64,000 nt of DNA from NCBI RefSeq assembly GCF_015062935.1, contig NZ_SUTM01000009.1, positions 1-64,000 of the forward strand, given 5' to 3'. The notes under the pieces were generated by a model. It ran no database searches. It saw only the letters and a list, made by a program, of their open reading frames with translations, and was not told where the DNA came from. Both the position numbers and the translations under genes were made by a program. This document shows positions 21,624 to 31,316 of this stretch, piece after piece. This DNA comes from Methanobrevibacter sp. GTDB lineage: Archaea > Methanobacteriota > Methanobacteria > Methanobacteriales > Methanobacteriaceae. Every line of letters starts with the position of its first letter. Within the stretch, counting starts at the first letter, position 1.

Positions 21624-21953
21624 ATGGAAAGGGCAGTATGGATAATACTTAACAAGAATTTTTCAATAACATTGGACAGTGAAATAAAAGACAATAAAAT
21701 TACCGATAAAAAATTTTCACCGGGTCAAGACATCTGGACAAATGAACTTCCCCGTTTAGGATTTAGTGATGAAACAGTTCAGAGAGATTATGATGATTTT
21801 TTAACAGACATCATGACCTTATTTACAGAACCTAGTGTCGATGAAGTATTCATTGAAGCAAAATTAGGTGAAGAATCAGAATATCTGAATTGCAAAAACC
21901 CTTTGATAATTAGAAAAATAGAAGAATATAGTGTAGATGAAATTATAGAATAG
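21624..21953 (+). CDS. Acidic soluble hypothetical protein, 109 residues
   Basis: I do not recognise this protein. It is acidic, starts with MERAVWIILNKNFSITLD and has no membrane segments or cysteine clusters (one Cys near 93). Its last 11 bases overlap the 3' end of the convergent 112-codon gene. No clear ribosome binding site is visible. The compact composition and the neatly bounded frame favour a real gene. Confidence 0.6.
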   Translation: MERAVWIILNKNFSITLDSEIKDNKITDKKFSPGQDIWTNELPRLGFSDETVQRDYDDFLTDIMTLFTEPSVDEVFIEAKLGEESEYLNCKNPLIIRKIEEYSVDEIIE

Positions 21954-22281
21954 CATTAGCCTTGTTTAACACGTCATCCATACTATTAAATTCCAATGGC
22001 TCACCTTCATCCGAAACATTTTCCGTTGTTATCAAAACAGTGGGTGACGCCCATATATATGAATACATGAAATAAACCACATTAACAAAAATAAGTATTG
22101 AAAAAACAGACAATGCCAAAATTAAACATATTACATGTATCAATGGGTTACCGAATCTCTTTCGCCTCATCAAGATAAAGTTAGACTCTTTCTCAACAAG
22201 CTTGAATTTTTTTTGAGACAACTCTTCGGAAATTTTTTCCATTTCTTTTGAATCATCTGCCTTAAGTATTAATAACTTCAT
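21943..22281 (-). CDS. Membrane protein of unknown function, 112 residues
   Basis: A cytoplasmic N-terminal domain (about 1-45) starts MKLLILKADDSKEMEKI and contains a basic stretch LMRRKRFG. A hydrophobic region (about 48-80) could span the membrane once or twice and is followed by an acidic tail. No family is recognised. It begins 1 base after the nitroreductase stop, so it is probably the last gene of that operon. Confidence 0.6.
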   Translation of the reverse strand: MKLLILKADDSKEMEKISEELSQKKFKLVEKESNFILMRRKRFGNPLIHVICLILALSVFSILIFVNVVYFMYSYIWASPTVLITTENVSDEGEPLEFNSMDDVLNKANAIL

Positions 22282-22282
22282 T

Positions 22283-22792
22283 TTAATCTATATAAACTAC
22301 AAATTCATCTAATTCTTTTCTAGGAGTTTCACGAGGTTCTGCATTGCCGTATCCTAATGGAGTGAACAATACAGGTTCTTCATTTTCATCCAAGTTTAAG
22401 AATTTATGAGCTTCATATTTTTTAAATGCGCCAATGTAACATGTTCCGAGACCTACATCCTGTGCTGCCAGAATCATATGATCCATCACAATTGTCGCAT
22501 CAATATCTGCAATGTTTTTTTGATCCCATGGTCTGGTCCAAGCTTTATTCCTTATTGCCACAACGCACAGTACATAAGGTGCTTCAACGAACCATTTTGC
22601 GCCGTAAATCTTGGATAATGCTTCCTTATGTTTTTTGGTATCAATAACATAAACTTTAAAAGGCTGAGCATTAACACCTGTCGGAGCTATGGTGGCTGCC
22701 TTAAGAACATATTCAAGTTTTTCGTCTTCAACTTCTTTATCCAAGTATCCTCTTACACTATATCTTTGATTTATTACATCTATGAATTCCAT
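22283..22792 (-). CDS. Nitroreductase-family FMN oxidoreductase
   Basis: This 169-residue protein has the family start FIDVINQRYSVRGYL with the FMN phosphate-binding Arg-Tyr-Ser-Val-Arg, APTGVNAQPFKVYVI near 35-50, and the C-terminal GYGNAEPRETPRKELDEFV. Family members are homodimeric FMN enzymes that reduce quinones, nitro groups or enones with NAD(P)H. I chose ATG 22792, which follows GCAGGTAGATAAA, over ATG 22810 inside the upstream gene's end. It overlaps or abuts the citryl-CoA-lyase-like gene. Confidence 0.88.
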   Translation of the reverse strand: MEFIDVINQRYSVRGYLDKEVEDEKLEYVLKAATIAPTGVNAQPFKVYVIDTKKHKEALSKIYGAKWFVEAPYVLCVVAIRNKAWTRPWDQKNIADIDATIVMDHMILAAQDVGLGTCYIGAFKKYEAHKFLNLDENEEPVLFTPLGYGNAEPRETPRKELDEFVVYID

Positions 22793-22793
22793 T

Positions 22794-23600
22794 TTATCTA
22801 CCTGCCTCATATATTATATCATCAAGGTCACAAAAACGTCTAAATTCTTCCTCATCCATATTTTCCTCATGAATATGTGCTATAATGCCCGGAATTCTTC
22901 CAATAATGAAAACTCCAAGACCCAAGTCCGGAGTAAAACCCAAATCAGATAGAATTGCGGCATTTGCGCCGTCAACATTAAGTCTAATTTTCTTTTTTTC
23001 ATACACCAAATCTTCAAGTGCCAAAGCCAGTTTAATATGAGGTCCCACAAAACCCTGCTTAATGACAATATTCATCAGTTCATCGGCTCTTGGATCAATA
23101 TTATGATATCTGTGGCCAAAGCCAGGTATTTTTTTCCCTTTCAGGATATAGTCACTATATATTTCAATGGCAGAACTTGCAATTTGCTTATTGTCAATGC
23201 CTGAATCCCCGGTGGCATAGGTTGAACCTATTTTTGATTGATATAACTCCATTGTTTTTTCAATAGCTCCTGCGTGCTTATGTCCGAAAGACAATAATGC
23301 ACCTGCAACAGCTGAGTTTAACGGTGAACCTGATGAAGCTACAAGCCTGGCAGTTTGGGTACTTGGCGGAGTAGCTCCGTGGTCACAAAATGAAACCAGA
23401 ACATGATTGAAAATCTTTCCTTCCTGAAGGGAAGGCAATCTCCCCCTTAAAAGCAGGAAAACCATGTCACTATATCTAATTTTATCAATTAAATCTCTTT
23501 GATTATATCCCCGAGTTACAATCTTATCAGTTTCTACACGGGATATGGCGGTTTTTAATGAATGAGGATTAACCCTAAAATTATTTTCTTGCATTTTCAT
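22794..23600 (-). CDS. Short citrate synthase-superfamily protein (citryl-CoA lyase-like)
   Basis: The protein has 268 residues, shorter than citrate synthase (about 370-430) and close to stand-alone citryl-CoA lyases. The superfamily's active-site regions are visible: FCDHGATPPST, FGHKHAGA, and PGFGHRYHNIDPRADEL with its catalytic His, plus NVDGANAAIL with the Asp. It should cleave or form a citryl-CoA-like thioester. It sits in a cluster with MmgE/PrpD and a fumarase-like dehydratase, so the substrate may be a branched tricarboxylate. An alternative start is ATG 23594. Confidence 0.82.
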   Translation of the reverse strand: MKMQENNFRVNPHSLKTAISRVETDKIVTRGYNQRDLIDKIRYSDMVFLLLRGRLPSLQEGKIFNHVLVSFCDHGATPPSTQTARLVASSGSPLNSAVAGALLSFGHKHAGAIEKTMELYQSKIGSTYATGDSGIDNKQIASSAIEIYSDYILKGKKIPGFGHRYHNIDPRADELMNIVIKQGFVGPHIKLALALEDLVYEKKKIRLNVDGANAAILSDLGFTPDLGLGVFIIGRIPGIIAHIHEENMDEEEFRRFCDLDDIIYEAGR

Positions 23601-23636
23601 GTACCTTTAAATTTGTTAATATTAAGTTTATTTTAA

Positions 23637-24509
23637 TTATAATTTTAATGTTGCTACTCTCGGCTCAACAAAACAAGATGGTCGGACTGCAACAATTCTC
23701 ACACCACTCGCCCTTTGATTACCTATATTAACATATGAACCTAAAACAGTAGCATTTCCTCCAAAACCCATTGGACCAATGCCAGTTTTATTCAACTCGC
23801 AAGCAACATACTTTTCAACATCACTCTGGTTGTCCAAATTTCCATATGCAATTGACTTTAAAAGCAGTGCATTTGCTTCATAATGTGTTCTTCCAATACC
23901 AATTGAAGGAATGGAAGGTGTGCAACCAAGCATTTTCAACGATTCTTTTAACCATTCCACAGCAGTATCTATAACATTGGAAAATGATCTCTTGTGATAT
24001 ACCCTGTATGTCTTTGCCCGGATTTCAGGACCTCCCCCTTCAAGAATAAAATGAATATTTAATGTATCCGGGGAAACATCCCTTTTGTAAGTGGATTCAT
24101 CATTAACTGTATCAATTAAAATGGAAGATGGCTTTAACATTCCCGGTTGTTCATATAATCCTTTACTTTGTTCAATTCTTTCAATCTCACTGCCTTTAAC
24201 CGCCATAGGTCTGGCAGGAAGATTATTCAATCCCAAAGCAATTCCCTCATGTATCTGGTTCAGCAATTCACCGGAAATCTCTCTTTGAGATCCCACTTCG
24301 ATAATGACATGAGGAATTCCAGTATCGTCACACAAGGGAAACCTGGTTTTTTGTGCAACTTTATAGTTTTCTAAAATCTGTGATAACGCCCATTTGGCAT
24401 TTTTATTTTCTTCATTTTCAATTGCATTATTCAATGCTTTTAATTTATCATCGCTAAGTGTGGTTGATGCATCGATGATTGAATTTGAAATAGCTTCAAC
24501 TATATCCAT
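23637..24509 (-). CDS. Class I fumarase / tartrate dehydratase alpha-subunit-like protein
   Basis: This is an Fe-S hydro-lyase alpha domain of 290 residues. Three cysteines in the expected places could hold a [4Fe-4S] cluster: FPLCDDTGIPH, LGCTPSIPSIGIGRTHYEA and ACELNKTGIGPMGFGG. Class I enzymes remove water from malate, tartrate or similar hydroxyacids. The partner beta subunit is not in this neighbourhood, so it may pair with a beta encoded elsewhere or use another partner. I prefer ATG 24509 (after GTGATTTTC) to ATG 24518, which is inside the upstream stop. Confidence 0.83.
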   Translation of the reverse strand: MDIVEAISNSIIDASTTLSDDKLKALNNAIENEENKNAKWALSQILENYKVAQKTRFPLCDDTGIPHVIIEVGSQREISGELLNQIHEGIALGLNNLPARPMAVKGSEIERIEQSKGLYEQPGMLKPSSILIDTVNDESTYKRDVSPDTLNIHFILEGGGPEIRAKTYRVYHKRSFSNVIDTAVEWLKESLKMLGCTPSIPSIGIGRTHYEANALLLKSIAYGNLDNQSDVEKYVACELNKTGIGPMGFGGNATVLGSYVNIGNQRASGVRIVAVRPSCFVEPRVATLKL

Positions 24510-24514
24510 GAAAA

Positions 24515-25417
24515 TCACTCTGGAACTGACAGGTCATCTGATTTAGACGGAGAAACTATTGCTTGAGGACAATAATTATCAATAACTCTTTTAACCAGCA
24601 TTACCTGTTTTATGCGCGCAACAGCTTCTTTTTCAGTGGTATCCCAGTTATGGTTGGCTGCAACTGAACCTCCTGTTTTTAAATAGACTGGAGATGCAAC
24701 ATCAATGAATTTAGGAACTTCATAATGCCTAATAAAGCCTCCGGTGGATTTGGGATTTTCAGTGTGCAAATCAATCGCAATATCGCATGCGTTTCTAATT
24801 GCTGCAATCATTGGAATCTGTAAGTCACGAACCGGATTCAATGAATCAAGTCCATTTTCCTGAAGCAATTTTGCAGATGCGGGATTGGAGTGGCCTGCAT
24901 GTGCGGACAATTTAAAATGAACATTTTCAGGTATTTCACCTTCTTTTCTCATTTTGTTTAAAACCCAAAGAAGTCCTTCATCATATAACAATATACCTCT
25001 TACACCTAATTTGCAGGCTCTTTTTACATCTTCAATTGCATAAACCAGATTATCATAACCTCTGAGCCTGTAACCAATTCGGCTACCCTCTTTGGTGTGG
25101 ACAGTGGCTGAAGTATCATATGTTGCTCTAGGACCCACTGATAAAAACAGTTCACATCCATAATCTTTAGCCAAATCAACCATTTTTAAGATTTCATCAT
25201 CACTTAAAAGCATTATTCCTTTTGTTTGAGTAACCCTATGGATAAAAATATCCTTATTAAGGGATTCTTGTAGTAATGCCTCCATAGTATTTGGGGATTG
25301 AATGCCCGGAACTTCAAAACGATATTGTCCTCCATCATTAAACCTTTTGTATGATTTAAATTCATCAAAAGTTTCTTTAATACCTATTTTTTTTAAGAAT
25401 TCCTTTGTTTCATCCAT
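24515..25417 (-). CDS. Peptidase U32-like TIM-barrel protein
   Basis: The 300-residue protein resembles the U32 'peptidase' superfamily barrel: repeated beta-alpha units, DYGCELFLSVGPRA, GYDNLVYAIEDVKRACKLGVRGILLYDEGLL, and KLSAHAGHSNPASAKLLQENG. It lacks the C-terminal collagenase-type extension. Several U32 proteins turned out to be hydroxylases or tRNA/cofactor enzymes, so peptidase activity should not be assumed. Its position between PrpD and the fumarase-like gene, with 5-base spacing, suggests a metabolic role in that pathway. Confidence 0.65.
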   Translation of the reverse strand: MDETKEFLKKIGIKETFDEFKSYKRFNDGGQYRFEVPGIQSPNTMEALLQESLNKDIFIHRVTQTKGIMLLSDDEILKMVDLAKDYGCELFLSVGPRATYDTSATVHTKEGSRIGYRLRGYDNLVYAIEDVKRACKLGVRGILLYDEGLLWVLNKMRKEGEIPENVHFKLSAHAGHSNPASAKLLQENGLDSLNPVRDLQIPMIAAIRNACDIAIDLHTENPKSTGGFIRHYEVPKFIDVASPVYLKTGGSVAANHNWDTTEKEAVARIKQVMLVKRVIDNYCPQAIVSPSKSDDLSVPE

Positions 25418-25422
25418 ATTAT

Positions 25423-26829
25423 CTACTCATTTAATTTTTGAACAACATATTTCATAGAATATTCTTCGAGTGAGTCAATAACCGTGAGATTGCGTACATC
25501 ATAAAGTGGATTGTTAGCTTTGAATTTGTCAATCAGCTCAGTTAATTGATATGGATTTTCAAAATCCCCTTTTGGAAGTAAAGTAATATTTTGGAATACA
25601 CCATTCCTAAATGCCTTATCCAATTTGATAATTACATTTGACGGCCTCTTATCAGGGTATAGTTCATTAAGTTGGTCATCTGAAAGGATAATCATTCTGC
25701 TTACAAGATTTTTAATACTGTTTACAGTATCAACAGTAGAATAATTATCTAAAAGTCCATATTCAATTAATTGATCTATGTCGTCAACAGTTACCTCACC
25801 AACTACCAGAGATATTGCAACAGCATACGGAAGTGATTGTTTTAGCTCTTCCGCATTTTTAGGATTGAAATTATCATGTTCTGCAGCTACAGAATATGTT
25901 TTAACTGCAACATTTTGAATATGGTCATATTCATCACCAATACTTGCCTTTAACTTTAATGCAGTGTCAATTGATGAGTGGATATGTCTACAGAAAGGAT
26001 ATTTTTTAAAGTAGATATCCCTGATTCTCACCTTGCCTATATCTTTTAGAACACTTTCCAGTGAGAAATTTTCAGCGGAGTAATCATCACCATAAACCAT
26101 TGTTTTTAAAAATCCTTCATTACCTTCAAAAATAGTTCCACTACCTGTAAAACCATTCCTTGCAAGAATAGCAGATAAAATTCCGTTATAAACTGCCTTA
26201 CCTGCATGTAACGATTTACCCATTGACCCACCATGATCTGATTCCAAAAGTCCGGCAGCCTGAGTTCCACATAATCCAAGCGCATTCAAAATTTGTTCAT
26301 CATCAAGTTTAAGTAATTTTGAAGCAACAGCACCGGCAACAAAGGCACCTATTGTACCCGTAGTGTGAAATCCCTTATTCCGGTGGTCTGGATTGACCAT
26401 CTTTCCAAGCAATATTCCCACTTCATATCCGACCAGCACGCCCTCAATAAACTCTTTTCCACTTAAATCATAAGCTTCTGAAATTGCCAGGGCAGTTGGA
26501 AATATTACTGCACCTAAATGAATCTGAGCCCCTCTATGACCATCATCCAACTCCAATACATGAGCAGAAACACCATTTAAAAAAGCGGCACTTAAAACAT
26601 TGGTTTTTAGATTTCTTCCTATGACTGAAGCCTTTAAGTTAATATTAACATTTCCAGAAAATATTTCATCAACTGTATTAAAAGCTATTTTTGAAGCGTT
26701 TTCCATTGATCCCCTATAGGTTACTCCAAAAAAATCTAAAAAAGCAGCTTTTACAGTGGTGATGGATTCCACAGTTGCCTGTTCATAACGATAGTTTGAA
26801 ATAAATTTAGAAATATTTTTTAAAAACAT
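25423..26829 (-). CDS. MmgE/PrpD-family dehydratase or decarboxylase
   Basis: This 468-residue protein is of the 2-methylcitrate dehydratase / cis-aconitate decarboxylase superfamily. Visible features are the N-terminal helical domain, LNGVSAHVLELDDGHRGAQIH near 90, HTTGTIGAFVAGAVASKLL near 155, LLESDHGGSMGKSLHAG near 195 and YPFCRHIHSSID near 270. Family members dehydrate or decarboxylate tricarboxylates without a metal cluster. It follows two DUF3100 transporter pairs and precedes the U32-like gene by 5 bases. The start follows AGGTGTTTT. Confidence 0.9.
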   Translation of the reverse strand: MFLKNISKFISNYRYEQATVESITTVKAAFLDFFGVTYRGSMENASKIAFNTVDEIFSGNVNINLKASVIGRNLKTNVLSAAFLNGVSAHVLELDDGHRGAQIHLGAVIFPTALAISEAYDLSGKEFIEGVLVGYEVGILLGKMVNPDHRNKGFHTTGTIGAFVAGAVASKLLKLDDEQILNALGLCGTQAAGLLESDHGGSMGKSLHAGKAVYNGILSAILARNGFTGSGTIFEGNEGFLKTMVYGDDYSAENFSLESVLKDIGKVRIRDIYFKKYPFCRHIHSSIDTALKLKASIGDEYDHIQNVAVKTYSVAAEHDNFNPKNAEELKQSLPYAVAISLVVGEVTVDDIDQLIEYGLLDNYSTVDTVNSIKNLVSRMIILSDDQLNELYPDKRPSNVIIKLDKAFRNGVFQNITLLPKGDFENPYQLTELIDKFKANNPLYDVRNLTVIDSLEEYSMKYVVQKLNE

Positions 26830-26902
26830 AAAACACCTAAGACAATATATGTTTAAACTAGATTAAAAATTTAACTTTATATAAAAATAAATAAAAAAGA
26901 AT

Positions 26903-27394
26903 TTAAACTGCAGGAACGCCAGTTAAAACCAGTACAATATGTGCCACAATAGCTGCACCATAATAAGTTGCTGCAATGACTAAAACTGTAATAACAATAG
27001 CTCTCCAACCTAAAGCTTTAAATTCATCCCAACTTTTACCCATTCCGATACCTACATAAGCTAAAAATACAGTAACAATGGATAAAAGTTCCACTTTAGA
27101 TACATAATACAGGACAAAATCTGAAGTAGGCATGCCAGGAAATGCCAAAACAATACCGAATATACTGATGTACAAGATTGAAGAAATATTTAACGGCAAA
27201 TACCTTTCCAGCCAAACACCTGCAAGAGTGATTAAAGACAAAATGCCCATACCTATTAGAGAATCAGTCATAGGATGTTTATATCCAAGATAATTACCAA
27301 TAACTGTGATAATTGAAAATATTACCAGCAATAAAATCCAATTAAAAATTCCGTGGACAGTTACATTCTCAGATCCGTCAATTATATCAGGCAT
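26903..27394 (-). CDS. DUF3100 partner membrane protein, second copy
   Basis: This 163-residue protein has five or so helices and a conserved motif GYKHPMTDSLIGMGILSL and IGMGKSWDEFKALGWRA. It is about 85 percent identical by eye to the protein encoded at 28449-28940. It always follows a DUF3100 gene here (stop and start overlap as TAATG), so the two probably form one transporter. It is the downstream member of the tandem duplication. Confidence 0.8.
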   Translation of the reverse strand: MPDIIDGSENVTVHGIFNWILLLVIFSIITVIGNYLGYKHPMTDSLIGMGILSLITLAGVWLERYLPLNISSILYISIFGIVLAFPGMPTSDFVLYYVSKVELLSIVTVFLAYVGIGMGKSWDEFKALGWRAIVITVLVIAATYYGAAIVAHIVLVLTGVPAV

Positions 27395-28293
27395 TATTCA
27401 TCATCCTCCTTTTCAGGTATTATGGATTTCCTTCCAATTTTTGGTTCCAACCAGTTATAAATTTTTTCAGTTAAAGGAAGGGCTATAAATATTACTATGT
27501 ATATACCTACACAAAATGAAAGCAAGTTACTGAATCCCGCAAAGGCCTGAATTTGGGTTTCCATGCCCGGAAATGCTGCAAGAGTCGGTCCAATAGCAGC
27601 AGCGTTCATACTCGCACTGCCAACACCGCTGGCCATAGCAAACGCATAAGGATGCAGCGGCAGGAATGACAATGATAAAGTAACAAGGAAACTGATAAAT
27701 ATTGTTCCGATTACAGTTCCAATAATGAATATTGCAAATACTCCTCTTGATTCAGGAGAGTTAAAACCATATTTATCTACAACAACAGCCACGTTAGGTT
27801 CCCTACCAATTGAATTGGTCATACCAATTGATTCTTTTTTAAATCCTAAAATCAATGCAATTGGAAGCACCAATATTGTAGCCAAGTGTCCTAATTCCTG
27901 CAGTATTAAAGCAGGACCCATTTCAAAAATCAGATGAATGGATTGACCACTGGCAACAGCCAATTTTGCAATTAAAACCCCGATAAAAAGCATCATGGCC
28001 CCTTCGGCAATACGAGCTTGTTTCCTTTGAATCCATTTAATAGGTTTTGCAAGATAAAAGACCAGACCCAAGATAATTGTATAAATTAACGGCATTATAG
28101 TAATGGCAACATCTTTAGTGAGTGGAATTTTGATTGTGCCTATCAACTCAGCAATAACAACTAAAATAAGAACAGTAATGTGTAATCTGTAATCTCTCCA
28201 AGGATTTTTCTTTAAAATCCTTTTATCCGTTTTTTCACGGTATATATGCTCCACTTGCCCATCTTTATCTGGAATAAAAATCCACCCCAACAA
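27394..28293 (-). CDS. DUF3100 family membrane protein, second copy
   Basis: This 299-residue membrane protein has about eight helices. The conserved core is VAEGAMMLFIGVLIAKLA-like near 97-113, then FEMGPALILQELGHLATI, IGMTNSIGREPNVAVVVDKYG, and FAMASGVGSASMNAAAIG. The HEL-type zinc protease motif is not complete (QELGH only), so a protease role is unlikely. The start is uncertain: TTG 28293 is the first standard codon, but a G-rich stretch followed by ATT in frame (28275) is also possible. Confidence 0.8.
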   Translation of the reverse strand: MLGWIFIPDKDGQVEHIYREKTDKRILKKNPWRDYRLHITVLILVVIAELIGTIKIPLTKDVAITIMPLIYTIILGLVFYLAKPIKWIQRKQARIAEGAMMLFIGVLIAKLAVASGQSIHLIFEMGPALILQELGHLATILVLPIALILGFKKESIGMTNSIGREPNVAVVVDKYGFNSPESRGVFAIFIIGTVIGTIFISFLVTLSLSFLPLHPYAFAMASGVGSASMNAAAIGPTLAAFPGMETQIQAFAGFSNLLSFCVGIYIVIFIALPLTEKIYNWLEPKIGRKSIIPEKEDDE

Positions 28294-28380
28294 GAAAAAA
28301 TATTATAAAATTTACAATATTAAATCATATATAATTTACTTTTTTAAATCTGATATTTAAATTAATAAGATTCAAATTTT

Positions 28381-28442
28381 AAAATTTCACAAAATAAGAA
28401 TAAAAATATAAAAAAAATAATTAAAATTTCACAAAATAAGAA
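28381..28442. repeat. Two copies of a 20-bp direct repeat
   Basis: AAAATTTCACAAAATAAGAA occurs at 28381-28400 and again, unchanged, at 28423-28442. The 155-base gap between the two DUF3100 pairs is otherwise plain A/T. The repeats may be a remnant of the tandem duplication or a binding site for a regulator of the second pair. Confidence 0.6.
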
Positions 28443-28448
28443 AAAATA

Positions 28449-28940
28449 TTATGCTATTGGAACGCCAGTTAAAACCAGCACAATATGAGCCACAATAGCA
28501 GAACCGAAATAAGTGGAAGCGATAACCAGAACTGTAATAACAACAGCTTTCCATCCCAGAGCCTTGAATTCATTCCAGCTTTTACCCATTCCAATACCAA
28601 CATATGCCAAAAATACAGTAACAATAGATAAAAGTTCCACATTTGACACATAATAGAGAACAGTATCAGATGTAGGCATTCCAGGAAATGCCAGAATTAT
28701 TCCCATTAGGCTAATGTAAATAATTGATGATATGTTTAACGGAAGTTTCCTTTCCATCCACACTCCAATTAAAGTTATTAATGACAGTATACCCATTCCA
28801 ATTAGAGAATCAGCTATAGGATGTTTATAGCCAATGTAATTTCCAATTACAGTTATGATTGAAAAAATTACTAAAAGCAGAATCCAATTAAAAATTCCCT
28901 CAACAGAGACATTTTCAGATCCGTCAATTAATTCATGCAT
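28449..28940 (-). CDS. DUF3100 partner membrane protein, first copy
   Basis: This 163-residue membrane protein matches the one at 26903-27394 almost along its full length. The N-terminus MHELIDGSENVSVEGIFNW precedes the first helix. ATG 28940 follows GGAAGGTGGTAAATA and overlaps the stop of the DUF3100 gene. About five helices are visible and no cysteine motif. Confidence 0.8.
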   Translation of the reverse strand: MHELIDGSENVSVEGIFNWILLLVIFSIITVIGNYIGYKHPIADSLIGMGILSLITLIGVWMERKLPLNISSIIYISLMGIILAFPGMPTSDTVLYYVSNVELLSIVTVFLAYVGIGMGKSWNEFKALGWKAVVITVLVIASTYFGSAIVAHIVLVLTGVPIA

Positions 28941-29863
28941 TATTTACCACCTTCCTGATTAGCATCAGCAGATCCATCATTAGGAACATTCCTACCAATC
29001 TTAGGTTCTAAAAACTCATATAACTTTTCGGTCAATGGCAATGCAAGGAATATCACAATGTAAATTCCAATTGAGAATGAAAGCAAATTACTGAATCCTG
29101 CGAAAGCTTCAATCTGAGTTTCCAAAGCAGGAAATGCTGCAAGAGTAGGGCCTAGAGAAGCCGCATTCATACTTGCACTACCAACACCACTTGCCATAGC
29201 GAAAGCATATGGGTGGAGGGGTAAAACTGAAACACTTATACTTGTTAAAAAACTAATGAAAACAGTACCTATAATGGTTCCAACAATAAATAATGCGAAT
29301 ATTCCACGAGATTCAGCAGAATTAAAACCATATTTATCTACAACGACCGCAACTTCCGGTTCACGACCAATAGAATTAGTCATTCCAATAGCTTCACGTT
29401 TAAAACCTAAAAGCAATGCAACAGGAAGTGCTATAAGAATTGTTGCCAAATGCCCTAATTCCTGCAACATTAATGCTGGACCCATTTCAAAAATTAAATG
29501 AATTGAACTACCACTGGAAACAGCCAATTTTGCAATTAAAATGCCTATAAATAGCATCATTGCCCCTTCAGCAACCCTAGATTGTTTTCTTTGAATCCAT
29601 TTAATAGGTTTTGCCAAATAAAATACTAACCCCAGGACCATTGTATACAATAAAGGCATTATAGAAACTTCAATACCCTGAGAAATCCTTATTTCTCTCG
29701 GACCGATTAACATTGCTATTACCACTAAAAGCAATACTGTTAAATGCAGCCCATAATCTTTCCAAGGATTTTTCTTTAAAATACGTTTATCAGTCTTTTC
29801 ACGATATATGTGTTGAACTTCTGTCGTCTCTACATCATTTTTTGAAATAATACCCACTCCCAC
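28940..29863 (-). CDS. DUF3100 family membrane protein, first copy
   Basis: This 307-residue protein is the paralogue of the one at 27394-28293, with the same core motifs (FEMGPALMLQELGHLATI, IGREPEVAVVVDKYGFNSA, GVGSASMNAASLGP). The cytoplasmic N-terminus contains the conserved HIYREKTDKRILKKNPW. The first standard start is GTG 29863; a second GTG at 29857 and ATT at 29851 are close to the G-rich GGGTGGGAGTGGG. It is the first gene of the cluster and has its own promoter. Confidence 0.8.
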   Translation of the reverse strand: MGVGIISKNDVETTEVQHIYREKTDKRILKKNPWKDYGLHLTVLLLVVIAMLIGPREIRISQGIEVSIMPLLYTMVLGLVFYLAKPIKWIQRKQSRVAEGAMMLFIGILIAKLAVSSGSSIHLIFEMGPALMLQELGHLATILIALPVALLLGFKREAIGMTNSIGREPEVAVVVDKYGFNSAESRGIFALFIVGTIIGTVFISFLTSISVSVLPLHPYAFAMASGVGSASMNAASLGPTLAAFPALETQIEAFAGFSNLLSFSIGIYIVIFLALPLTEKLYEFLEPKIGRNVPNDGSADANQEGGK

Positions 29864-30065: not shown

Positions 30066-31316
30066 TCACATTCTACAAAGTGGTTTTGCCAGATGACGCC
30101 TAGCAGAAACAGGTGTTTCGTAAAACTGAGAATTTTTTAAATTACGAGTGATAATAATAGGAACTTTTTTATCAGAATCTAATTTTTTCCCACATCGTTT
30201 ACATTTAAATCCCTTGTTTTTACCTGCAGAAGTCATTCTTTTTCCACATTCGCAAATTGGATTTTTATATTCCACATCATTCAAACTTATGACCTGAAAC
30301 TTTTCGATGTTGAAAGTGTTCTGCTCACCGATTCCACCGAATACACGGATAACATCACCAGGACATAAATCTGAAACAACGTTTCTGAATGATTTTGTAG
30401 GTTCATAAGCGCCGCATTCTATTTCACCGGAATCGTCTTCAATAAAAAAGAACATGTGCCCACCATCAATTATTTTAGGTTTATTTTTTACTTCCCCAAT
30501 AACTTCATAACAACCGAATTGCTTCATATCAGATATCTTGTCTGCTTTTTGGATATGCATATCAGTGTGCTGATTAGTTTTAAATATGCACCAGTCAACA
30601 ATTGGTTCTGAAACTTTAACAATACCTTGAGCTTTTTTTAAGGCATCAACAGTGTTTGAACGTATCCCATATAAGACAGGACATGGAGTTTTAGGTTCGA
30701 TGGCAATGTAGTTTTCACCATAATCTATATTTTCAAAAGTATCCGGAAATGTTTGCTCATCCATTTCATAAACTGAATCATAATCTATTTGACGTTTTGT
30801 TCCATAATTCTCACTTGATCTGTAAGCAAGCAACTCATAAGTGTAATCGGACAGAGGCAGACTAATGGCTGCAATAGAACCTATTATCCCCCTTCCCTTT
30901 TTGAATTTATGAATTTCACATCCTATAGACTTTCCAAAGTTTTCAGCCTCATCAATGGTGATGAACTCATAAATTGCCCTAAATGCATATTCTTCCATCT
31001 GAGAAGTTATTTCACCCTCATAAAATATTACCCCCGGATTGGTATTGTCACAGTCAAACATGGAGAGTTTTTCAACTTCCTCCAATACAATCCTTCGAGC
31101 AAGATCTGCTTTGTCATCATTTTTGATTTTGAAACTGACACCGCCATTGCCTCTGGTTTTAAATCTGGCAAATGGATTTAATCTAATCAATCTAGGATGG
31201 TCAAGAAGTTCAATTCCATTGTCTTTGAGTTTGTTTATTATCTGACTAGCTAGAAAAGTAGTGCACATTCCATCCGGAGAGTCTGTGTCATCTATTCCAA
31301 TATGTAAAACATTAAT
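30066..31316 (-). CDS. tiaS: tRNA(Ile2) agmatinyl-cytidine synthetase TiaS, non-standard start
   Basis: TiaS adds agmatine to C34 of tRNA-Ile(CAU) so that it reads AUA. The N-terminal catalytic segment GIDDTDSPDGMCTTFL begins upstream of the first in-frame ATG (31268). The middle contains the family domains (RLNPFARFKTRGNGG, GRGIIGSIAAISLPL), then an OB-like region and a zinc ribbon near the C-terminus (CECGKRM...CKRCGKK). The frame is open only back to 31316, where it meets TAA; no ATG, GTG or TTG is available there. ATT 31316 is 4 bases after AAGGTGAT and is the most plausible start. Confidence 0.93.
   Translation of the reverse strand: MNVLHIGIDDTDSPDGMCTTFLASQIINKLKDNGIELLDHPRLIRLNPFARFKTRGNGGVSFKIKNDDKADLARRIVLEEVEKLSMFDCDNTNPGVIFYEGEITSQMEEYAFRAIYEFITIDEAENFGKSIGCEIHKFKKGRGIIGSIAAISLPLSDYTYELLAYRSSENYGTKRQIDYDSVYEMDEQTFPDTFENIDYGENYIAIEPKTPCPVLYGIRSNTVDALKKAQGIVKVSEPIVDWCIFKTNQHTDMHIQKADKISDMKQFGCYEVIGEVKNKPKIIDGGHMFFFIEDDSGEIECGAYEPTKSFRNVVSDLCPGDVIRVFGGIGEQNTFNIEKFQVISLNDVEYKNPICECGKRMTSAGKNKGFKCKRCGKKLDSDKKVPIIITRNLKNSQFYETPVSARRHLAKPLCRM

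Follow-up and report, generated by a model that had tools for sequence, protein, structure and literature searches.

What is the function of the ten-gene run that occupies positions 21943 to 29863 of a 64,000-nucleotide stretch of archaeal DNA (contig NZ_SUTM01000009.1, positions 1 to 64,000; hereafter "the window"), which its nearest named relatives place in a Methanobrevibacter-type genome? A sequence-only reading of this locus had proposed a single organic-acid cluster, in which a di- or tricarboxylate is taken up, dehydrated and cleaved as a CoA-activated product. We find instead that the unit needing explanation is a core of four genes, encoding a MmgE/PrpD-family dehydratase (PrpD), a U32-like barrel protein, a fumarase-type alpha subunit (FumA') and a citryl-CoA-lyase-family protein (CCL). 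With moderate confidence, we favor the view that this core, together with an unlinked fumarase-type beta subunit (FumB'), makes 1,3,4,6-hexanetetracarboxylic acid (HTCA), with which methanofuran a terminates, or the hydroxylated version of it found in methanofuran c. Methanofuran is the coenzyme that serves as CO2 carrier at the opening step of methanogenesis, and HTCA is the 4,5,7-tricarboxyheptanoyl group of methanofuran a.

According to the list of open reading frames (ORFs) of the window, the minus strand carries all ten genes, beginning at 29863 and ending at 21943. Their positions and profile scores bear out the domains originally named for them:

28940..29863, minus strand: putative DUF3100 transporter half A, copy 1 (PF11299, 284 bits)
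28449..28940, minus strand: putative DUF3100 transporter half B, copy 1 (1-bp overlap with A; matches the C-terminal part of fused forms)
27394..28293, minus strand: putative DUF3100 transporter half A, copy 2 (PF11299, 284 bits)
26903..27394, minus strand: putative DUF3100 transporter half B, copy 2 (1-bp overlap with A)
25423..26829, minus strand: core gene 1, MmgE/PrpD-family dehydratase, 468 amino acids (PF03972, 228 bits; PF19305, 91 bits)
24515..25417, minus strand: core gene 2, U32-like TIM-barrel protein, 300 amino acids (PF01136, 19 bits)
23637..24518, minus strand: core gene 3, FumA', class-I fumarase-type alpha subunit, predicted divergent paralogue (PF05681, 182 bits)
22794..23600, minus strand: core gene 4, CCL, short citrate-synthase-type / citryl-CoA-lyase-family protein, 268 amino acids (NF004866, 405 bits)
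22283..22810, minus strand: accessory nitroreductase-family flavoprotein (PF00881)
21943..22281, minus strand: small membrane protein, 112 amino acids, on the same strand as the core

Spacing, first described as mostly zero to 75 bases, does run from overlaps to about 75 bp within the cluster, with the exception of the 155 bp that separate the two DUF3100 pairs.

The order and strand of the four core genes (PrpD-U32-Fum-CCL) are kept in 55 of the 56 homologous loci that have enough flank, indicating that the arrangement is far beyond chance. The sequence-only reading had allowed that homologues might lie scattered in relatives; when this was checked, linkage proved to be conserved. Across the 151 genomes of the phylum, the U32-like gene was found in 128, PrpD in 127 and CCL in 121, and the corresponding counts for the 91 high-quality genomes are 78, 78 and 76. 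Every high-quality genome listed as lacking PrpD or U32 belongs to a single genus, g12, and the others so listed are incomplete assemblies; a few genomes without a match stand outside this listing. The core order spans Methanobrevibacter, families f2 and f3, and a Methanothermus-like autotroph with a single-contig genome of 1,243,342 bp. In the termite-gut lineage g13 (Ca. Methanovirga) and in G005 the genes are apart or on separate contigs, most of them being kept. The flanking genes vary from locus to locus. The number of DUF3100 copies upstream of the core, scored at 41 loci with room for them, is zero in 12, one in 5, two in 23 and three in 1, and the flavoprotein is present in 45 of 56 loci and was not seen in thermophilic lineages. 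Because of this variation, it is the four-gene core that has to be explained: the run of ten genes is real, but the ten are not one conserved unit.

The core proteins belong to families whose names are potentially misleading. PrpD carries both MmgE/PrpD Pfam domains and the active-site His/Lys, and D95, D96, H104, H155, K205, H282 and H284 are invariant in the archaeal set. It falls far under the score of the 2-methylcitrate dehydratase equivalog TIGR02330 (41.4 bits vs 458), is closest to B. subtilis IRG1 and IDS epimerase, and occurs as a single copy in the window's genome. CCL passes NF004866 (405 bits vs a cut-off of 245). Its best solved relative is the citryl-CoA lyase 6hxp (E = 9e-73, aligned over the whole length), and its catalytic His/His/Asp (H109, H163, D210) are invariant. 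Three cysteines of FumA' that are invariant in archaea (C63, C199 and C282) are the three Fe-S cysteines of class-I fumarase and TtdA alpha. A loss of key residues from PrpD or the lyase, which had been named as a possible objection, was looked for, and the residues are present in both and in the fumarase-like protein as well. Judged from the alignments, the catalytic residues of PrpD, CCL and FumA' are intact.

The U32-like protein scores 19 bits against PF01136, under the gathering score of 22.4, and has no invariant or nearly invariant cysteine in alignment sets A1 or A3; on these grounds a U32 peptidase was rejected. Arg, Asp/Glu and Lys residues are invariant. The structural model is a confident TIM barrel (predicted local distance difference test score, pLDDT, 91.8) whose nearest folds are TIM-barrel aldolases, CutC, RuBisCO-like proteins and the U32 protein Mk0906; a solved sequence relative was sought and none was found. 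All of the top fold matches are generic TIM barrels, and the attempt to deduce a reaction from the fold was therefore dropped. We infer that the barrel is probably a polycarboxylate lyase/aldolase or an isomerase.

Every cluster-bearing genome tested encodes two fumarase alpha proteins, the canonical one at about 335 bits and the cluster one at about 180 bits, and only one copy is present in g12. FumA' passes TIGR00722 (117.9 vs a cut-off of 100.65) and lies below the canonical fumarate hydratase equivalog NF004885 (123 vs 276). In a maximum-likelihood tree it joins proteins of a Clostridial gene module, apart from canonical fumarases, with support of 100/100 and on long branches. By sequence, FumA' is a dedicated paralogue. 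As a separate observation, a second gene of the citryl-CoA-lyase type lies 5-9 kb from the one for canonical fumarase alpha in several lineages (G150:C1:259586-260371, G133:C9:27074-27865, G136:C7:91954-92736 and G140:C1:1480190-1480984).

The beta subunit provides the strongest positive link to methanofuran and 2-oxoglutarate. Two beta-subunit genes, scoring about 150 and 80 bits, are present in every cluster-bearing genome tested and one in g12, so the idea of a canonical beta subunit shared with FumA' was rejected. The second, divergent subunit, FumB', lies outside the window in the window's own genome (G000 contig C11, 84114-84578), and its pattern of gain and loss is the same as that of the core in 12 of 12 genomes tested. 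Its identity is 41-55% with the Clostridial module's beta subunit and 31-37% with canonical archaeal beta subunits. In six lineages (f2, f3, f4, g8, g9 and g15) FumB' adjoins mfnA, the gene for the tyrosine decarboxylase of methanofuran synthesis, and points in the same direction, with 4-bp overlaps in L234 and L236. The neighboring mfnA was identified by TIGR03812 at 555-572 bits where scanned; L238 has a wide gap between the two genes, and there homology clustering and position served to assign MfnA. In Methanobrevibacter, FumB' is divergent from korDABC-sucC, the genes for 2-oxoglutarate synthase and succinyl-CoA ligase.

Coenzyme synthesis is indicated because FumB' maps to mfnA and to 2-oxoglutarate synthase. 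HTCA is formally two C5 units joined at their alpha carbons, and the corresponding acid of Methanobrevibacter smithii methanofuran is hydroxylated next to the amide carboxyl. The methanofurans of Methanosarcina and Methanocaldococcus end in glutamates instead, including those of M. jannaschii and M. acetivorans. PrpD was not found in the M. jannaschii and M. acetivorans controls, and its absence from these two glutamate-type methanogens points to methanofuran a/c. The 4,5,7-tricarboxyheptanoyl group has been reported in Methanothermobacter wolfeii methanofuran (PMC13397495). As of 2011, some seven methanofuran genes of Methanothermobacter had still to be found (PMC3087415), and the enzymes that add the terminal moieties of methanofurans a and c "remain to be identified" as of 2021 (PMC8141765).

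The overall chemistry that we infer would be akin to the methylcitrate cycle, with its condensing enzyme, PrpD, hydro-lyase and TIM-barrel lyase, run in the direction of synthesis. In this tentative scheme and step order CCL would join some C5 acyl-CoA to the keto group of 2-oxoglutarate, giving a C10 skeleton. PrpD would then dehydrate the tertiary alcohol, FumA'B' would add or remove water at a neighboring or terminal position, and the U32-like barrel may catalyze a further step, either a second aldol/lyase reaction or an isomerization. The double bond would be saturated by a reductase, for which the flavoprotein is a possible candidate at loci that have it, and in gut species DUF3100 may transport the acid or one of its precursors through the membrane.

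The genus without the core offers a natural comparison. No listed genome of g12 has U32, PrpD or CCL, and FumA' and FumB' were not found in the six and four genomes, respectively, that were searched. MoaC was not found in 20 of 20 g12 genomes and is present in 18 of 18 other Methanobacteria. Missing molybdopterin synthesis, and with it the lack of a functional formyl-methanofuran dehydrogenase, is a hallmark of Methanosphaera (PMC6120340, PMC13135261), which is thus unable to form formyl-methanofuran from CO2. Because MoaC is missing here, g12 most plausibly corresponds to that genus. Both mfnB and mfnA are retained in g12, so the methanofuran core is still made and the module is dispensable for it. 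The analysis thus offers a reason for the loss of the module by Methanosphaera.

Several observations weigh against a role in methanofuran synthesis. Bacteria that do not have methanofuran carry U32, PrpD and FumA'B'-type sets in polysaccharide loci, and the chemistry of the core is therefore not methanofuran-specific. The core genes themselves are not beside mfn genes; FumB' alone adjoins mfnA, and not in the window's own genus. The adjacency could be old synteny, and MfnA is also able to supply beta-alanine for CoA. The loss of the module along with formyl-methanofuran use is a correlation, because more than 300 core genes separate Methanosphaera from Methanobrevibacter (PMC6120340). We hold our confidence only a little above the midpoint, mainly because the bacterial relatives show a chemistry broader than methanofuran. 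The module is real, conserved and functionally coherent, and of the explanations considered the making of methanofuran's terminal acid has the best support.

The alternative that survives best is that the core is an anabolic route to a carbon skeleton, of the methylcitrate type, whose product is some other Methanobacteria-specific acid or cofactor part. A distribution that is universal apart from Methanosphaera fits this explanation equally well, and genes for sugar dehydratase, aminotransferase and ATP-grasp proteins accompany the related Clostridial sets, suggesting that such a core can serve other products. The linkage of FumB' to mfnA and 2-oxoglutarate synthase favors methanofuran a/c, as does the failure to find PrpD in the two glutamate-type methanogens, and we regard a different product as possible, though on balance doubtful. 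Pseudomurein is an unlikely candidate, since Methanosphaera makes pseudomurein too.

The original proposal, in which a di- or tricarboxylate is taken up, dehydrated and cleaved with the help of CoA to supply carbon or energy, draws on the transporter-like genes that adjoin the core in gut species. The partner B proteins (163 amino acids each) have no Pfam match, and in five cases among relatives A and B are fused into one ORF of 451-469 amino acids (L038 2898-5997, L088 1705-3099, L109 98-1498 and L037 15054-16406 give positions); the "pair" would therefore be a split single transporter. A medium-confidence model of the fused protein (pLDDT 74.8) resembles the elevator carriers CitS (Z 14.1), SbtA (Z 14.1) and NhaP at Z of about 13-14, and also the NhaA-type fold, with Foldseek E values above 0.001. 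The guess of a transporter thus looks plausible: DUF3100 A and B may together be a carboxylate carrier, whose substrate the fold does not identify. Bacterial operons with U32 homologues 50-55% identical, canonical-type fumarase, malic enzyme and TRAP/TTT transporters also speak for degradation. However, a degradation pathway should be patchy and transporter-linked, and the core is neither. It is present in 78 of the 91 high-quality genomes, including strict CO2 autotrophs with very small genomes, it is universal in strict autotrophs without DUF3100, and the 12 of 41 loci that have no DUF3100 keep it. The direction of degradation also fits poorly with a FumB' that maps to mfnA and 2-oxoglutarate synthase. 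The fumarase subunits of the bacterial malic-enzyme operons fall in the canonical clade rather than the cluster clade, and the distribution follows formyl-methanofuran use and not habitat. Universal presence in autotrophs, at loci without DUF3100 as well, weakens this reading so far that we consider it unlikely.

Least probable of all, and in our estimation very improbable, is a non-homologous oxidative citrate branch (CCL to citrate, PrpD to cis-aconitate, FumA'B' to isocitrate, and the U32-like protein to succinate and glyoxylate or similar): the reaction types fit at every step, CCL has citryl-CoA lyase as its nearest match and methylisocitrate lyase is among the many TIM-barrel fold matches of the U32-like barrel, but that match is not specific, the branch would be redundant since Methanobacteria make 2-oxoglutarate reductively with kor (L232), and it leaves unexplained both the mfnA linkage and the loss with formyl-methanofuran use.

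The other accessory and neighboring genes add detail to the locus. The closest solved relative of the flavoprotein is 3h4o, and a C=C or flavin reductase is a possible function. The small membrane protein is linked in many Methanobrevibacter loci and is diverged or undetected elsewhere; its match to Fijivirus P9-2 was below cut-off and was taken as chance. Genes for an A-type ATP synthase lie downstream of the cluster, and the upstream neighbor (30066-31268) is, by the look of its sequence, presumably TiaS-like.

The analysis names five candidate genes for the synthesis of HTCA, prpD, u32-like, fumA', ccl and fumB', and shows them to be specific and co-inherited. It also corrects annotations under which their products would appear as fumarase, citrate synthase, methylcitrate dehydratase and peptidase. 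A pathway peculiar to the main gut methanogens would offer a way to act on the methane they produce.

The claim that no known pathway covers this gene set holds up when known systems are compared. Like the methylcitrate cycle (PrpC, PrpD, AcnB, PrpB), the cluster has a citrate-synthase-type enzyme, a PrpD dehydratase, an Fe-S hydro-lyase and a TIM-barrel enzyme in one operon. The cluster does not hold the full set of prpC, prpD, acnB and prpB homologues, as only the PrpD-family and CCL types occur: a short CCL stands for PrpC, a class-I fumarase fold for aconitase and a U32-like barrel for PrpB, PrpD is far below the equivalog cut-off, and the hosts are CO2 autotrophs. Citryl-CoA lyase of the Hydrogenobacter type (6hxp) matches CCL in length, catalytic residues and family cut-off, but the cluster is without citryl-CoA synthetase, and CCL is always paired with PrpD, U32-like and FumA'. 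Methanofuran biosynthesis by MfnA-F is tied to the module through FumB' beside mfnA in the six lineages; MfnA-F make the core of the coenzyme with one glutamate, whereas the module would make the terminal acid and is missing from the Methanosphaera-like genus, where the core pathway persists. Members of the U32 family (UbiU/V, RlhA, TrhP, Mk0906) share the barrel fold and a weak PF01136 similarity with the U32-like protein, which differs in its sub-cut-off score, its lack of conserved cysteines and its other invariant residues.

More distant U32-like homologues occur in varied bacterial settings. Those in L176-L179, L204, L205 and L207 (about 50-55% identical) lie in operons with canonical-type fumarase, malic enzyme, LDH2-type dehydrogenase, nitroreductase and TRAP/TTT transporters, where the malic enzyme, LDH2, TRAP and TTT names are our own reading of the sequences and not profile matches; these operons probably serve dicarboxylate catabolism. 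Homologues about 33-40% identical in L185, L188, L189, L193, L194 and L200 accompany a glutamate-dehydrogenase-like protein, a PanB-like protein and an IclR regulator, a setting that hints at substrates of the amino-acid type. On an Enterobacter chuandaensis plasmid (L242, 7914-8852) a 33%-identical protein sits amid phosphotransferase, aminotransferase, oxidoreductase, M14 peptidase and nucleotidyltransferase genes, in what looks like a natural-product cluster.

Because the fumarase alpha of the malic-enzyme operons is in the canonical clade, these operons were rejected as a direct model, and the set in Clostridial surface-polysaccharide loci (L123-L131, L175) is the sole close analogue. There, PrpD, an aldo/keto reductase, a thiamine pyrophosphate (TPP) decarboxylase, U32, a PF15617 lyase and FumB'/FumA' are encoded near ATP-grasp and sugar genes. 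The two modules are alike in U32 (63-65% identical), FumA' (about 43%), FumB' (the 41-55% given above) and a PrpD-family protein; they differ in that the Clostridial one has a PF15617 C-C lyase in place of CCL and the additional TPP decarboxylase and aldo/keto reductase. We suggest, very tentatively, that a single core of hydro-lyase, TIM barrel and PrpD makes branched polycarboxylates in both domains of life: HTCA for methanofuran in Methanobacteria, with CCL, and a related acid that decorates Clostridial surface polysaccharides, with the PF15617 lyase, TPP decarboxylase and aldo/keto reductase.

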